From NCBI RefSeq assembly GCF_947495715.1, contig NZ_CANLZU010000010.1, forward strand, positions 1-64,000: DNA of 64,000 nucleotides, given 5' to 3'. The notes beneath the pieces are model-generated. The model saw only the letters and a program-made list of their open reading frames with translations. It was not told where the DNA came from and did not search any database. Origin of the DNA: an uncultured Oceanisphaera sp. GTDB lineage: Bacteria; Pseudomonadota; Gammaproteobacteria; Enterobacterales; Aeromonadaceae. Positions 2,916 to 55,524 of the stretch are shown one piece after another (the first letter of the stretch is position 1; every line of letters starts with the position of its first letter). Made by a program: the position numbers and the translations under genes.

Positions 2916-3174
2916 GAGGAAACAGAGCCACCTCCCACGACACGCCATAAACTCATCCCTGAGGGCTCGGGAAATGCCGTCCATGGCATTTCACGGTCGT
3001 GGGAGCCGATCTCTGTTGCCTCTCCTTAAGCACCGAGTTGTCTGCAGGTCGCTCCCACAGGCGACGCCGCAGCAGAGGGGCGGATGAAGGGTTCTACTCT
3101 ACCGACCATCACATGACAGGACGTCATGTGCTGAGCGCCACATGGAGGTGCTTGCAGCGTGTCGGTGGAGTAGA
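2916..3174. repeat. Nested-palindrome intergenic repeat, copy A (two modules, head to head)
   Basis: Module A1 (2916-3022, read on the minus strand) has an outermost arm GAGGAAACAGAG pairing with CTCTGTTGCCTC and a second arm CTCCCACGAC pairing with GTCGTGGGAG. Inside lie two hairpins with GGA loops: AAATGCC-ATGGAC-GGCATTT and CTCA-GGGA-TGAG. Module A2 (3093-3174, plus strand) has the outer stem TCTACTCTACCGAC / GTCGGTGGAGTAGA around CACATGAC-AGGAC-GTCATGTG and CAC-ATGGAG-GTG. A ~70-bp linker (CACCGAGTTG and on to GCAGCAG) is shared with the other copies. It fills the space between the RES gene and the tRNA-Leu terminator. No gene is seen here; a 72-codon frame at 2999 merely runs through the repeat. 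Confidence 0.85.
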
Positions 3175-3273
3175 CCTTTCGTTCGACCTTTACAGGGCAG
3201 CTAAACAGATCAGTTAGTTTGACAGATTGGTATGACCGGCCACTCTGGGATGTCGAGCAAGAGTGTCGGCCAC

Positions 3274-6109: not shown

Positions 6110-6751
6110 TTAAATCTTTTCTGCGTCCAGCATGCCGTAACGGATTGCCAGATGGGTCAACTCTACGTCACCGTTGATATCCAGTTTGCTGAACAAGCGA
6201 TAACGGTAACTGTTAACCGTTTTAGGGCTCAGATTAAGCTGCTCGGATATATCGGTAACCCGCTGGCCCCGAGTAATCATCAACATGATCTGCAGCTCTC
6301 GTTCGGATAACTGCTTGAACGGGTTTTCTTCGTTGGAAAACTGACTCAGCGCCATGCGCTGGGCAATTTCCGGCGAAATATAACGCTGGCCACTGTGCAC
6401 CAGGCGTATGGCGTTGATCATTTCTTCCGGCCCGGCCCCCTTGGTCAGATAACCGCTGGCTCCCGCCTGCATGACCTTGGTAGGAAACGGGTTTTCGGTG
6501 TGAATGGTCAGGACGATGATTTTTATATCCGGGTTGAAACGCAAAATCTTGCGGGTGGCTTCCAGGCCACCGATACCCGGCATGTTCATGTCCATCAATA
6601 CGACGTCCGGATGCTGCTCTCTACACCATTGCACGGCCTCTTCGCCGCTTTTGGCTTCACCCAGCACCTTCATTCCCTTGACGTCTTCTAATATGCGTCG
6701 GATCCCTGTGCGCACTAACTCATGGTCATCAACCAGGAATACGTTAATCAA
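6110..6751 (-). CDS. uvrY: UvrY/GacA response regulator (BarA-UvrY system)
   Basis: A LuxR/FixJ-type response regulator, 213 residues from a TTG start at 6751. The start was chosen because MINVFLVDDHELVRTGIRRI is the family N-terminus and a GGAGAG ribosome site sits just upstream; a longer ATG frame from 6799 has no such support. The receiver domain holds the acidic pair DD (8-9), phospho-acceptor D54 (VLMDMNMPG) and K in YLTKGAG; the C-terminal HTH is LSERELQIMLMITRGQ and LSPKTVNSYRYRLFSKL. In related bacteria UvrY/GacA, phosphorylated by BarA, activates CsrB-type RNAs that sequester CsrA. That role is relevant to the GGA-loop repeats in this window. Confidence 0.95.
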   Translation of the reverse strand: MINVFLVDDHELVRTGIRRILEDVKGMKVLGEAKSGEEAVQWCREQHPDVVLMDMNMPGIGGLEATRKILRFNPDIKIIVLTIHTENPFPTKVMQAGASGYLTKGAGPEEMINAIRLVHSGQRYISPEIAQRMALSQFSNEENPFKQLSERELQIMLMITRGQRVTDISEQLNLSPKTVNSYRYRLFSKLDINGDVELTHLAIRYGMLDAEKI

Positions 6752-6931
6752 AAGATACTCTCCGACTGCGTTAACATGCTTATCATATAACACTTTCACC
6801 CAAGCTTGGCATCATAGCGAAGATGCCAACGAAAATAAAACATTCGCCATCGTATGTATCTGCCATCTTTATTATCAAATCAAATAGATATTGGCAATAA
6901 AGAGGTGTAATACAGCGGCCGCGGTGAACGA

Positions 6932-21415: not shown

Positions 21416-21765
21416 AGAGGCAACACAGCCGCCTCCCACGACACGCTACGGAAAATGACACTCATTGTTTCTGCCTGCTGCAAACATTCACTGGATGTTC
21501 GGTCAGTCAGAAACAATTCGTCTCGGCGAGACGAGCTCGCCCCATGTAAGCTCGGACATGCCATCCCTGGCATGTCACGGTCGTGGGAGCCGTTCTCTGT
21601 TACCTCTACTTGAACACCGAGTTGCCCGAAGACGGTGCCAACAGGTGACTCTGCAGCATCAAGGAGGATAAAGGGATCTGCTCAGCCGACCTTCTGTTTC
21701 AGGGATGAAACAGAGAGCGTACATGGATGTATTCACAGCGTGTCGGCGGAGCGGGCCCTTTGTCC
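21416..21765. repeat. Nested-palindrome intergenic repeat, copy B (two modules)
   Basis: This fills the gap between two convergent genes. Module B1 (21416-21607, minus strand) has outer arms AGAGGCAACA/CTCTGTTACCTCT and CTCCCACGAC/GTCGTGGGAG and the inner hairpin GACATGCCA-GGGA-TGGCATGTC. Its second hairpin is interrupted after TTACATGG by a ~90-bp sub-element (21449-21541) also present in copy F. Module B2 (21665-21765, plus strand) has the outer stem AGGATAAAGGG/CCCTTTGTCCT and GCCGAC/GTCGGC around CTGTTTCA-GGGA-TGAAACAG and TACA-TGGA-TGTA. The linker ACACCGAGTTGCCCG through GCAGCATCAAGGAGGA is the family linker. Confidence 0.9.
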
Positions 21766-24142: not shown

Positions 24143-24168
24143 GGCGGCATTATACCCATTAAGGGAAC

Positions 24169-24202
24169 GTGAGGGGTGAGGGGTGAGGGGTGAGGAGTGA
24201 GG
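24169..24202. repeat. Heptamer tandem array (GTGAGGG), ~4.9 units
   Basis: Units GTGAGGG x3, then GTGAGGA and GTGAGG, directly head to tail, between the bamC 3' end and the polB start. It belongs to the same family as arrays after ruvX, purU and yfbR, but no inverted partner array is seen nearby. Confidence 0.9.
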
Positions 24203-24215
24203 TATTTAGTTAAAC

Positions 24216-27349: not shown

Positions 27350-27530
27350 AAGAGGCAACCCTGTTGCCTCTTCTTGACGTCCGAGTTAGCTGTTGGCATC
27401 ACCAGCAGCCGACGCCAAAGCTTCAAGGAGGACCAAGGGATCTGCTCGGCCGATCATCCGCGCCACGGATGGCGCGGTTGAGCCTACAAGGATGTATTCA
27501 CGGCGAGTCGGCGGAGCTGGCCCTTGGTCC
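27350..27530. repeat. Nested-palindrome intergenic repeat, copy C (minimal module 1 plus full module 2)
   Basis: Module C1 (27350-27372) is reduced to the outermost arm only, AAGAGGCAAC-CCT-GTTGCCTCTT, as if the inside had been deleted. Module C2 (27430-27530, plus strand) is complete: outer GGACCAAGGG/CCCTTGGTCC and GCCGA/TCGGC, inner CCGCGCCA-CGGA-TGGCGCGG and TACA-AGGA-TGTA. The last hairpin matches the CsrA selection consensus RUACARGGAUGU except for its first base. It lies between convergent bcp and the YeeE pair. Confidence 0.9.
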
Positions 27531-32208: not shown

Positions 32209-32445
32209 GAGAGGCAACAGAGTCACCTTCCGCGACACGCCATAAACCATCCATGGGGGCTCGGGAAATGCCTTCCTTGGCATTTCACGGTCGCGGGAGC
32301 CGATCTCTGTTGCCTCTCCTTAAGCACCGCGTTGTCTGCAGGGCGTTCCCGCAGGCGACGCGGCAGCATAGGGGCGGATGAAGAGTTCTCCTTGATGCTG
32401 CAGAGTCGCCTGTGGGTACCGTCTGCGGAATATTCGGCGTTCAAG
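32209..32445. repeat. Nested-palindrome intergenic repeat, copy D (module 1 plus an inverted linker)
   Basis: Module D1 (32209-32318, minus strand) has the outer arm GAGAGGCAACAGAG/CTCTGTTGCCTCTC and a second stem CCGCGAC/GTCGCGG, with inner hairpins AAATGCC-AAGGAA-GGCATTT and CCA-TGGA-TGG. The family linker follows to ~32373. Then 32387-32445 is a second copy of the linker in reverse orientation (its complement reads GACTCTGCAGCATCAAGGAG), so the right half comes from another element by inversion or recombination. It lies between two divergent genes, unlike most copies. Confidence 0.85.
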
Positions 32446-33806: not shown

Positions 33807-34105
33807 TGTGTGATCTCCAAATAAATATAAAATTTTTAATACTACACATACGCATGTACGTTCATGCTCAAATTGACCCTTGATTATGCTCGGTGTCAAC
33901 GGATAAACCAGCTACAACTCATTGATTATTACTACCTTTTAAAACATCAAGTTTTCAGGCCTGCCTACTCATTCATTGTCATGACAAGTGAATTTCAAAT
34001 GAGACCATATTGGACGGAGTGACGGCGAAGTGCAATTAAAAAGCCTTGGAAAACATCGCCGTAAGCGGCGGCTTCTGCCAACAGGTCATTCCGGAGCATC
34101 TGGGA
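33807..34105. other. Intergenic stretch with no recognised feature
   Basis: About 300 bp upstream of the orphan membrane gene. The first half is AT-rich and probably holds that gene's promoter, though I cannot pick one box pair. The second half becomes GC-rich and leads into repeat copy E. Confidence 0.5.
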
Positions 34106-34494
34106 GGACAAAGGGATCTGCTCCGCCGACCTTCTGACCGCCATGGATGGCGGGAATGCCTGGACGGCAGGAGCATTTCCCGGCCGCGCCAGGGATGGCG
34201 CGGCGGAGCCTCCAGGTAGGATTGACGGCGTGTCGGCGGAGCGGGTCCTTTGTCCAACGTTTACGCCGAGATGAAAGAGCTCATTTATTTAGTTCTGCTG
34301 CGCAGAACCGGCCGGCTGAAGCGGCCTCTACAAGTCGGTTCCACTCTGCCCGCAGACTGTGCCAACAGGCGGCTCCGATACTATAAAGAGGCAACAGAGA
34401 ACGGCTCCCACGACCGTGACATGCCATGGATGGCATGTCCGAGCTTACATGGATGTACTCGTAGCATGTCGTGGGAGACGGCTGTGTTGTCTCT
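34106..34494. repeat. Nested-palindrome intergenic repeat, copy E (two modules, same orientation)
   Basis: Module E1 (34106-34255, plus strand) has the outer stem GGACAAAGG/CCTTTGTCC and TGCTCCGCCGAC/GTCGGCGGAGC. It is larger than usual, with CCGCCA-TGGA-TGGCGG, GCC-TGGAC-GGC and CCGCGCCA-GGGA-TGGCGCGG, and a decayed last hairpin. Module E2 (34387-34494, plus strand) is the cleanest copy: CTCCCACGAC/GTCGTGGGAG around GACATGCCA-TGGA-TGGCATGTC and TACA-TGGA-TGTA. The family linker lies between them (CTGTGCCAACAGGCGGCTCC). Confidence 0.9.
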
Positions 34495-38160: not shown

Positions 38161-38517
38161 GAGGCAGCAGTGCGGTTGCGCTCCGCCGACGCGCTTCGAG
38201 CCCATCCCTGGGACGCTCGGCAAATGTCGTCCCTGACATTTGACGGTCGGCTACGGCAATCCCCACTGCTGCTTCGTGAAACTGGGGAGTTGCCTGTCAA
38301 AAGCTAACAGGCACCTCGGTGCTGACCAAGGAAGGCAAAGGGTGTCTGCTTCGCCGCGCCCTCTGCGCCATGGATGGCGCAGCGGAGCCCCCATGGGGCG
38401 AGCTTGCTCGCCGTGACGAAATGTTTAAACCCGACCGAACATTCAGTATGTTCGCAGCGGTTTGAAACATTGAGTGGCATGTCATTACGGCGGGCCGGAG
38501 AAGCAGTGCGCTTTGCC
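38161..38517. repeat. Nested-palindrome intergenic repeat, copy F (two modules, divergent form)
   Basis: Module F1 (38161-38275, minus strand) has the outer arm GAGGCAGCAGTG/CACTGCTGCTTC, different from the GAGGCAACAGAG arm of other copies but still paired, and inner hairpins AAATGTC-AGGGAC-GACATTT and CCCA-GGGA-TGGG inside GCCGAC/GTCGGC. Module F2 (38334-38517, plus strand) has GGCAAAG/CTTTGCC and TGCGCCA-TGGA-TGGCGCA; its second hairpin is interrupted after CCCATGG by the same ~90-bp sub-element as in copy B (38397-38490). The right edge comes within 71 bp of the sprT start. Confidence 0.85.
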
Positions 38518-42686: not shown

Positions 42687-43102
42687 GCCTGACCTTGCTG
42701 GGTTTCGACTATGGCACCAAGAGCATCGGCGTGGCGGTCGGTCAGCAGATCACCGGCTCTGCCCGCCCGCTGCTGGCACTGAAAGCCAACGAGGGCGTGC
42801 CCAACTGGGATCAGATTGAAGCCCTACTGAAGGAGTGGCAACCGGGCCTGCTGGTGGTCGGCCTGCCACTCAACATGGATGGCACCGAGCAGGACATCAG
42901 CCGCCGCGCCCGCAAGTTCGCCAACCGGCTGCACGGTCGCTTCGGCATCAAGGTCGAACTGCAGGACGAGCGCCTGACCACCACCGATGCCCGCGCCCGC
43001 CTGTTCGAGGCCGGTGGCTACAAGGCGCTGGGCAAAGACGCGGTGGATGCGGTGTCGGCTCAGTTGATCCTGGAGTCCTGGATGGAAAGTAATTACTTGT
43101 GA
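42683..43102 (+). CDS. ruvX: Putative Holliday-junction resolvase / pre-16S rRNA nuclease YqgF
   Basis: A 139-residue RNase H-like nuclease. The motifs [15 protein letters not shown] (first Asp), [14 protein letters not shown], and [10 protein letters not shown] with [16 protein letters not shown] carry the catalytic acids. In E. coli YqgF is essential and implicated in 16S rRNA 5' maturation. The stop codon TGA (43100-43102) is itself inside the first unit of a GTGAGGC tandem array, so the array grew from the gene's own end. Confidence 0.95.
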
Positions 43103-43224
43103 GGCGTGAGGCGTGAGGCGTGAGGCGTGAGGCGTGAGGCGTGAGGCGTGAAAATACCTGACATCAGAAAACCGAGCTACTTTCTTTATCTTTTTCTCCT
43201 CACTCCTCACCTCTTTCCCCTCAC
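43099..43224. repeat. Heptamer array GTGAGGC x7 with inverted partner
   Basis: Seven perfect GTGAGGC units run 43099-43147. From 43197 to 43211 and 43216 to 43224 lie complementary units (TCCTCACTCCTCACC, CCCCTCACC). The two arms can pair into a long imperfect hairpin between convergent ruvX and the cold-shock gene. Unit length and purity suggest recent expansion by slippage. Confidence 0.92.
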
Positions 43225-43232
43225 CAAAACAC

Positions 43233-43259
43233 AAAAAACCCGCCGAAGCGGGTTTTTTT
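43233..43259 (-). terminator. Terminator after the cold-shock gene
   Basis: AAAAAACCCGC-CGAA-GCGGGTTTTTTT has U runs in both directions and lies 24 bp past the csp stop. It can serve both convergent genes. Confidence 0.92.
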
Positions 43260-43282
43260 GGTCTTGAATTACCGAAGGGTAA

Positions 43283-43486
43283 TTACAGAACCTGAATCTG
43301 TGAAGCCTGCGGACCCTTGGCACCTTCAGTAGCGGTGTAGGATACAGCCTGGCCTTCTGCCAGAGTTTTGAAGCCACTACCGACGATTTCGGAGAAGTGG
43401 GCGAACAAGTCTTTGCTGCCATCAGCCGGAGTGATGAAACCAAAACCTTTTGCTTCGTTAAACCATTTTACGGTACCGTTAGCCAT
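43283..43486 (-). CDS. CspA-family cold shock protein
   Basis: A 67-residue single-stranded nucleic-acid binding protein. RNP1 is KGFGFI and RNP2 is DLFAHFS; the start is [18 protein letters not shown]. CspA-type proteins melt mRNA structure at low temperature; some paralogues are constitutive or stress-linked, so I give no paralogue letter. The ribosome site is GGTAAG. A leader of roughly 150 bases with a 14-bp palindrome lies upstream, as is usual for cold-induced members. Confidence 0.95.
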
Positions 43487-43510
43487 TTTATCTTACCTTT
43501 ATTTTAGTGA

Positions 43511-43524
43511 CGAGCACGTGCTCG
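43511..43524 (-). promoter_or_regulatory. Perfect palindrome in the csp leader
   Basis: CGAGCACGTGCTCG is fully self-complementary and lies 25-38 bp upstream of the csp ATG. It may be an mRNA hairpin of the cold-shock leader or a protein site; the sequence alone does not decide. Confidence 0.5.
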
Positions 43525-43698
43525 GAAAATGCAACAAAATCAAATAAGGGAAGCTTGGTGATGACTGTAGTGCCGTAAGGAACGAACAATATACAAAGGC
43601 CGCGCTAACTTGAAACTCTTGCTGACGTGCACTCTACGGAAGTAAGGGGGTGGCGTCAAACATTATCGTGAATATTTATTGTGTGATATTTAAGCAAT

Positions 43699-54394: not shown

Positions 54395-54397
54395 AAC

Positions 54398-54467
54398 GTG
54401 AGGGGTGAGGGGGGTGAGGAATAAAATCCATATCCGCAGATCGGGTGTTTTGCTCCTCACTCCTCAC
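54398..54467. repeat. Heptamer-type array pair after purU
   Basis: GTGAGGGGTGAGGGGGGTGAGG (two slightly irregular units plus one, 54398-54419) is followed 32 bp on by the complement CTCCTCACTCCTCAC (54453-54467). The arms can pair. It lies between convergent purU and the DUF1244 gene, in place of an ordinary terminator. Confidence 0.85.
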
Positions 54468-55440: not shown

Positions 55441-55443
55441 CTC

Positions 55444-55524
55444 GTGAGGGGTGAGGGGAAAGCTGCCCGCCTCACCCTTTACCCCTCACTCCTCACCCCT
55501 CACTCCTCACTCCTCACCCCTCAC
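55444..55524. repeat. Heptamer-type array pair after yfbR, overlapping the DUF3833 stop
   Basis: GTGAGGGGTGAGGGG (55444-55458) faces a longer array of CCTCACCCC/CCTCACT units (55470-55524). The second array reaches into the DUF3833 coding sequence, whose last codons and TGA stop (GTGAGGGGTGA on the minus strand) are array units. Confidence 0.9.

Follow-up and report, generated by a model that had tools for sequence, protein, structure and literature searches.

The palindromic intergenic modules in a 64-kb stretch of DNA from an uncultured Oceanisphaera sp. (the window, which was analysed over its full 64,000 nucleotides) belong to a repeat family with a covarying fold, a strand-specific pairing bias, constrained hairpin loops and an occupancy that differs between species. 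Our best reading, and a fairly probable one, is that they are a TwoAYGGAY-type CsrA-binding RNA element lying inside a dispersed repeat. Binding of CsrA by the modules is likely. It is more weakly suggested that the modules jointly affect the level of free CsrA or locally protect or control the mRNAs in which they lie. New are the high-copy dispersal, the divergent pairs, mostly 50-51 nt apart, the loop test and the finding that sister species have gained and lost copies.

Modules of the window and their fold

Modules had originally been predicted in six intergenic regions of the window, and both sequence and fold, together with matches to a covariance model (R1) derived from 81 modules in other genomes (alignment A1), confirmed all six. 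At E values up to 1, R1 matched the window 10 times, always inside these regions or at most 8 nt beyond them.

Three of the six sites carried a minus/plus pair. At the site starting at 2916, the left half of the divergent pair (2919-3026, minus strand, R1 62.5 bits) was separated by a gap of 50 nt from the right half (3077-3182, plus strand, 50.7 bits). At the site starting at 21416, a minus-strand module at 21416-21615, recognised by sequence and fold, had the outer stem, hairpin 1 and an expanded hairpin 2, with a partial R1 match at 21511-21579 (22.1 bits), and was accompanied by a complete plus-strand module at 21661-21763 (83.9 bits) with the hairpins CTGTTTCA-GGGA-TGAAACAG and TACA-TGGA-TGTA. 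At the site starting at 38161, the left half of the pair was found at 38168-38275 on the minus strand (43.4 bits), and a plus-strand module at 38330-38517, recognised by its sequence, had an expanded hairpin 2 without its GGA loop (26.6 bits for 38330-38428). The sites starting at 27350 and 32209 carried one module each, a complete one at 27425-27528 on the plus strand with the highest score in the window (86.5 bits) and one at 32214-32320 on the minus strand (55.4 bits). Two plus-strand modules were present at the site starting at 34106. The first, at 34099-34262, had its inner hairpins replaced, as comparison with locus L353 of a sister species showed (partial R1 match at 34179-34232, 32.2 bits; Rfam RF01731 24.2 bits, below the cut-off), and the second, at 34385-34489, was complete (76.7 bits) and gave a weak Ysr224 match (17.2 bits) on the opposite strand. 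Inner hairpins were replaced or expanded in the three damaged modules (21416-21615, 34099-34262 and 38330-38517), and the GGA loop of hairpin 2 was lost in two of these, a point that speaks against a CsrA-binding role.

A further palindromic block (GGGGCGAGCTTGCTCGCC...) at 38396-38517, directly after CATGG, expanded hairpin 2 and abolished its GGA loop. The block recurred at the identical point in two loci of one sister species (L347 and L358, genome G567), and a similar block was seen at 21440-21535 of the window.

The motif CANGGAYG occurred 30 times in the window, where 23.7 matches are expected per 64 kb, and 10 of 100 shuffled sequences contained 30 or more; the motif is therefore not enriched window-wide, and the striking part is its clustering in the modules, with half of the matches falling inside the six regions (about 1.8 kb, about 0.7 expected). 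The predicted total of about 18 small hairpins was reached only when variants such as ANGGAG were counted, and fell to 15 in the six regions for CANGGAYG itself.

Read along the GGA strand in the 5' to 3' direction, a module of about 105 nt consists of an outer arm, CC-N-T, hairpin 1, N'-GAGC, N, hairpin 2, YTYRC, N', GCG and the second outer arm. In an ungapped parse of 111 modules, the outer stem was 21-33 bp long in 67 and shorter in 31, and 13 were left unparsed. The sequence of the outer arms differed freely between genera and partly within genomes, yet the arms paired. In a covariation analysis of 81 sequences, 86.0% of the cells were paired (56.5% when shuffled), and the covariation score was 0.711, compared with 0.185 for shuffled and at most 0.205 for slid alignments. 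All 23 outer pairs changed on both sides, but this count proves nothing, because 477 of 500 shuffles reached it; the proof is carried by the paired cells and the score. Covariation extended to the junction among 118 stretches collected with a search pattern, in which the base after GAGC covaried with the base before GCG (C-G 53, G.A 36, T-A 18, G-C 7) and the two bulge positions covaried with each other (T-A 88, C-G 25).

Pairing also differed between the strands. Counted over the 84 of 112 modules that had a good 24-pair outer stem, anchored on Watson-Crick pairs alone, the GGA strand contained 86 G.T and 17 A.C oppositions and 43 G.A and 8 C.T oppositions, and 41 modules favoured G.T compared with 10 that favoured A.C (p 1.5e-5), whereas slid-register controls were level (246 vs 251 for G.T and A.C, 260 vs 231 for G.A and C.T). 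This asymmetry shows that the GGA strand is the one that stays foldable, which fits an RNA; single-stranded DNA or strand-biased mutation would fit as well.

Loop constraint and known relatives

Since the search pattern itself fixed hairpin 2 in the 118-stretch set, the loops were examined separately with a second covariance model (R2), built from 30 of the 81 A1 modules after the eight letters CANGGATG had been masked with N in each hairpin. R2 found at least 86 matches in the window's own genome (150 of 445 candidates scored), all 86 of which were fetched, and hairpin 2 was located by its flanks with the GGA not consulted. The 12-nt form of hairpin 2, present in 82 of the 86, had C in 80, A in 80, G in 81, G in 81, A in 81 and G in 82 copies, that is, CANGGANG, with the N before GGA (T 32, G 34, C 11, A 5) and the N after it (G 38, T 37, A 4, C 3) variable and with at least three forms of the stem under the loop (TAC/GTA, TCC/GGA and CCC/GGG). 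An alignment of 104 copies agreed with this reading of hairpin 2, and in the same alignment hairpin 1 had C in 97%, A in 93%, a free N, G in 96%, G in 100%, A in 98% and G in 100%, with T at the second N in 83 copies (80%). Recovery of CANGGANG by the masked search strongly supports the original prediction that the loops match the CsrA/RsmA motif, and the accompanying claim that the loop is constant while the arms vary withstood the same test, in which loops as free as the arms did not appear.

According to an excerpt of PMC6849547, CANGGANG is the published Rsm/CsrA motif and the Rsm consensus is 5'-A/UCANGGANGU/A-3', and the consulted part of PMC7652899 describes an ANGGAN hexaloop and the SELEX consensus RUACARGGAUGU for CsrA. 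The fixed loop positions of the modules are those of all three descriptions; the outer A/U of the Rsm consensus is not retained, and C-G stands there in many copies. Modules thus show what characterises a CsrA/RsmA site, CANGGANG placed so that ANGGAN lies in the loop of a hairpin. The two GGA of a module were spaced 19-24 nt apart, with 20 nt in 93 of 118 stretches (the pattern permitted 16-24), which lies within the 10-63 nt that one CsrA dimer can bridge (optimum above 18 nt; PMC7652899, in excerpt), and one CsrA/RsmA dimer might therefore grip both loops. Two features argue in the opposite direction. Hairpin 1 has long stems, and CsrA may be disfavoured by stems of very high stability (same excerpt). 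The junction (CC-N-T, GAGC, GCG) equalled the loops in invariance, a constraint that CsrA by itself would not impose, although the junction letters, unlike the loops, were present in the model.

No published family could at first be named for the modules, but a relative exists in the Rfam family TwoAYGGAY (RF01731), which coincides with modules in genome G186. Of 12 RF01731 matches there, 11 lay above the cut-off, and all 11 were R1 modules at the same place and on the same strand (R1 67 to 73.5 bits). Across four genomes (G186, G205, G089 and G250), all 16 RF01731 matches fetched, 11 above and 5 below the cut-off, overlapped R1 modules on the same strand. The two families resemble each other in having an outer stem that encloses two same-strand hairpins ending in A-N-GGA-N loops of the AYGGAY type. 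They differ in that nearly all modules described here escape the Rfam model: with a cut-off of 43 bits, RF01731 reached at most 24.2 bits for the window copies and 28.3 bits for the best own-genome match. Of the 18 own-genome matches with E values up to 10, 15 coincided with modules in place and strand (the exceptions were C19:36934, C1:153687 and C13:102986). A search with Rfam at its cut-offs found no module in the window, and in 18 named loci it found Ysr224 alone (L079) and no RF01731. TwoAYGGAY RNA is listed in PMC2864571 and was proposed in 2014 as a CsrA-binding RNA, then untested (PMC4333381, both in excerpt); RF01731 shares Rfam clan CL00106 with E. coli CsrB. No description of TwoAYGGAY as a high-copy interspersed repeat was found in the excerpts of PMC4333381, PMC2864571, PMC11661157 and PMC11701678 (the name also occurs in PMC7657543), and dispersal in such numbers was not encountered in the portions of the open PubMed Central literature that were consulted.

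The modules resemble CsrB/RsmB, RsmY and RsmZ, of which CsrB belongs to the same clan, in their multiple GGA hairpins. Those RNAs come from one or a few dedicated genes with many loops, the CsrB loops being CAGGA(U/A/C)G (PMC7652899, in excerpt), whereas the modules are scattered and have two six-nt ANGGAN loops each. Ysr224 (RF02770) matched a module in Pectobacterium (L079) with 73.3 bits, above its cut-off of 70, and matched others below it, at L327 of G186 (51.3 bits), at L163 and in the window. Its Rfam strand is the antisense, UCC-loop strand of the modules, which counts against the CsrA reading. Ysr224 is reported to have several copies of differing expression in Yersinia ruckeri (excerpt of PMC12112432), which suggests transcription, but the strand that Rfam assigns to it lacks the GGA loops. 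Three reported RNAs were considered as relatives and set aside. RsmU of Xanthomonas is derived from a 3'-UTR and binds RsmA (PMC7694677, in excerpt), and no link is claimed. CsrR1/R2 of Alcanivorax and Aln1 of Alteromonas are reported, in the excerpts available, as sponge-type RNAs, and no link with them was shown.

Copy number and behaviour as a repeat

The covariance-model search over related genomes that had been proposed as a check revealed a genome-wide family. In the own genome (3.65 Mb in 82 contigs), R1 scored 150 of 1318 candidates and gave at least 149 matches with an E value of 0.01 or less. At least 164 matches, a few of them partial or weak, were mapped by combining R1, R2 and the window hits, a lower bound, since further copies appeared in an alignment of own-genome copies. 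Allowing no more than one mismatch, the pattern TACANGGATGTAYTC was found 65 times compared with once for the reversed-pattern control, and chance origin was rejected on this ground and on the genome-wide R1 and R2 matches. Among 274 sampled genomes of the class, 49 were R1-positive, representing 44 of 222 genera (up to 14 candidates scored per genome), and a draw of 299 genomes from the phylum gave 17 positives, all in the window's class, the share of the 299 outside that class not being broken down. The pattern GGATG-N(4-12)-GAGCNTACANGGATGTA matched at least 118 stretches in named genomes, including Rheinheimera, Marinobacter, Microbulbifer, Xanthomonas, Shewanella and Pectobacterium; of 80 listed titles, 78 name a taxon that we take to be gammaproteobacterial and two name just Proteobacteria. 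The flanks of the window were 82-89% identical to loci of O. arctica and O. psychrotolerans.

Like BIMEs, the modules are intergenic palindromes that occur in head-to-head dimers, in high copy number and with a patchy distribution. The same likeness extends to the GTAG/CGTC REPs, which differ in being 20-40 bp long with a GTAG or CGTC tag, the GTAG ones flanking a RAYT gene (PMC3733652, in excerpt), whereas modules are about 105 nt long, with constant loops and free stems. An association with RAYT genes was ruled out at the two Y1 transposase (Y1_Tnp) loci of the own genome, neither of which contained a module.

The DNA-level, REP- or MITE-like alternative that the original prediction had named was supported too as regards the repeat nature of the modules. 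The 164 own-genome matches were split evenly between the strands, with 82 on either; among 21 close neighbours, 20 were divergent pairs, 14 of the 20 with a gap of 50-51 nt. In two pairs of G186 the members lay 60 nt apart, and G454 contained six modules in tandem with a period of about 228 bp, the last match partial. At the metK-sprT site of 12 sister species, R1 matched in four (one at 28 bits) and in none of the other eight, two of which (L359 and L360) showed stem-like remnants by eye. At the tkt 3' site, three of 12 sister species had a match (L353, L354 and L362), and the inner hairpins of the window copy differed from those of the L353 copy, which has standard ones. This differing occupancy indicates that copies come and go and that single sites are not under strong selection.

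It is possible, though we think it doubtful, that the modules are purely a DNA-level mobile repeat of the REP, BIME or MITE type, in which a strand-specific enzyme acting on single-stranded DNA reads the junction and loops and the CsrA likeness is coincidental or of no cellular use. The pairing, the variable occupancy with remnants, the tandem array, the patchy distribution and the strand asymmetry are all compatible with such an explanation, as are flanks beyond the stem that, by eye, were common to the copies of one genome in G083, G065 and G249. On the other side, both hairpins keep CANGGANG and vary where Rsm sites are free, fully for hairpin 2 and partly for hairpin 1, and the outer stems, unlike terminal inverted repeats, are free between genera. 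No consistent case of terminal inverted repeats with duplications was found in the G083, G065 and G249 flanks, read by eye, or at the metK site, where no clean target-site duplication was seen; a 9-bp repeat was noted by eye at L221 and in none of three other G249 copies examined. The lack of modules at both Y1 transposase loci weighs against this explanation, as does a viral collection in which a single stretch, on one contig, matched the module pattern. Phage or plasmid cargo as an origin was set aside on the result from this viral collection, to which the search was confined. The RNA and DNA-level readings do not exclude each other.

The spacers of the G454 tandem array (L336) contained a TCGCGGCTGAAGCCGCTCCTACA palindrome, which presumably resembles a GTAG-tagged Pseudomonas REP, and a similar palindrome was present at 34309-34334 of the window.

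The Csr system and neighbouring genes

The own genome encodes a CsrA that is identical to PDB 1y00 at 54 of 57 residues and related to PDB chain 2jpp and seven sister entries, which we take to be RsmE complexes. It also contains two CsrB-type RNAs above the cut-off and a third match below it. In keeping with the original prediction, a uvrY-like response-regulator gene lies in the window (6110-6799, minus strand), encoding Response_reg and GerE domains and adjoining uvrC. A csrA match was obtained in 45 of 49 module-positive and 190 of 225 module-negative genomes, figures so similar that co-occurrence is uninformative. Of the four positive genomes that gave no csrA match, G196 is 98% complete and has 10 modules, which argues against the CsrA reading, and the other three (G008, G069 and G100) are at most 88% complete. 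These four genomes, the covarying bulge positions and the equally invariant GAGC/GCG junction would suit a module that binds another RNA-binding protein or ligand reading the ANGGAN loops and junction. Such a partner in place of CsrA is improbable given the incompleteness of three of the genomes, the identity of the loop with the known CsrA consensus and the place of TwoAYGGAY in the CsrB clan.

Neighbouring genes were examined in two sets of 63 cases. For the own genome, 82 of the 86 R2 matches were taken, and 11 that overlapped a called ORF and 8 that lacked a gene on one side were set aside; the clean cases comprised 34 between convergent genes, 13 tandem sense, 10 tandem antisense and 6 between divergent genes. 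In the other set, with noisy gene calls and 40 of 103 modules set aside for overlap with a called ORF, the counts were 20 convergent, 14 tandem sense, 21 tandem antisense and 8 divergent. No bias towards the sense strand of neighbouring genes beyond location was found in either set, and sense orientation was accordingly dropped as proof of a 3'-UTR role. The 34 convergent cases in the own genome would suit bidirectional transcription-end or mRNA-stabilising hairpins acting without CsrA, as proposed for classical REPs, but this explanation is highly improbable, leaving the constant loops and the strand asymmetry unexplained. A gene that, from its protein, is presumably aroA was flanked by modules in two genomes (L066 and L163), one immediately past the 3' end and the other immediately ahead of the 5' end, with the same divergent arrangement in both genomes.

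In the reading that we favour, of a TwoAYGGAY-type element inside a dispersed repeat, the module would be a three-way-junction RNA with two hairpins, each ending in an ANGGAN hexaloop on a closing C-G pair and separated by about 20 nt, so that one CsrA/RsmA dimer could grip both loops of a single module. As DNA repeats, modules would spread or be copied singly, in divergent pairs or as a tandem array. They would settle in intergenic regions, chiefly those that lie between convergent genes, where read-through that transcribes the GGA strand would produce RNA able to bind CsrA. A bolder proposal, which we offer tentatively and consider rather unlikely, is that the modules form a mobile genome-wide CsrA sponge, a repeat that spread to tens or hundreds of copies in many gammaproteobacterial genera because it carries an RNA gripped by the CsrA dimer. 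Copy number and read-through would then set free CsrA, so that the repeats, and not CsrB alone, would tune the global regulator, and divergent pairing would offer a sense module to transcripts from either side.

Should CsrA bind the modules, models of the Csr system in these bacteria would have to include hundreds of sites beyond CsrB and mRNA leaders, and a defined protein partner would be known for a repeat family. TwoAYGGAY, for which we found no tested function, gains a test bed of more than 160 natural variants in one genome.

Both CsrB-type genes of the own genome (G000:C17:12656-13127 and G000:C3:153749-154577, both minus strand) had a plus-strand module past the 3' end, at 74 and 417 nt, respectively, which is unexpected at a density of about one module per 22 kb. 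Elsewhere in the window, an Xre-like antitoxin gene followed by a RES-domain gene at 1749-2839 is a likely toxin-antitoxin pair, and a cspA thermoregulator leader (Rfam RF01766, 89.1 bits) lies at 43230-43626 on the minus strand. Short arrays of GTGAGGG/GTGAGGC heptamers and their CCTCAC complements were observed at 24166-24204, 43099-43151, 54395-54419 and 55441-55524.
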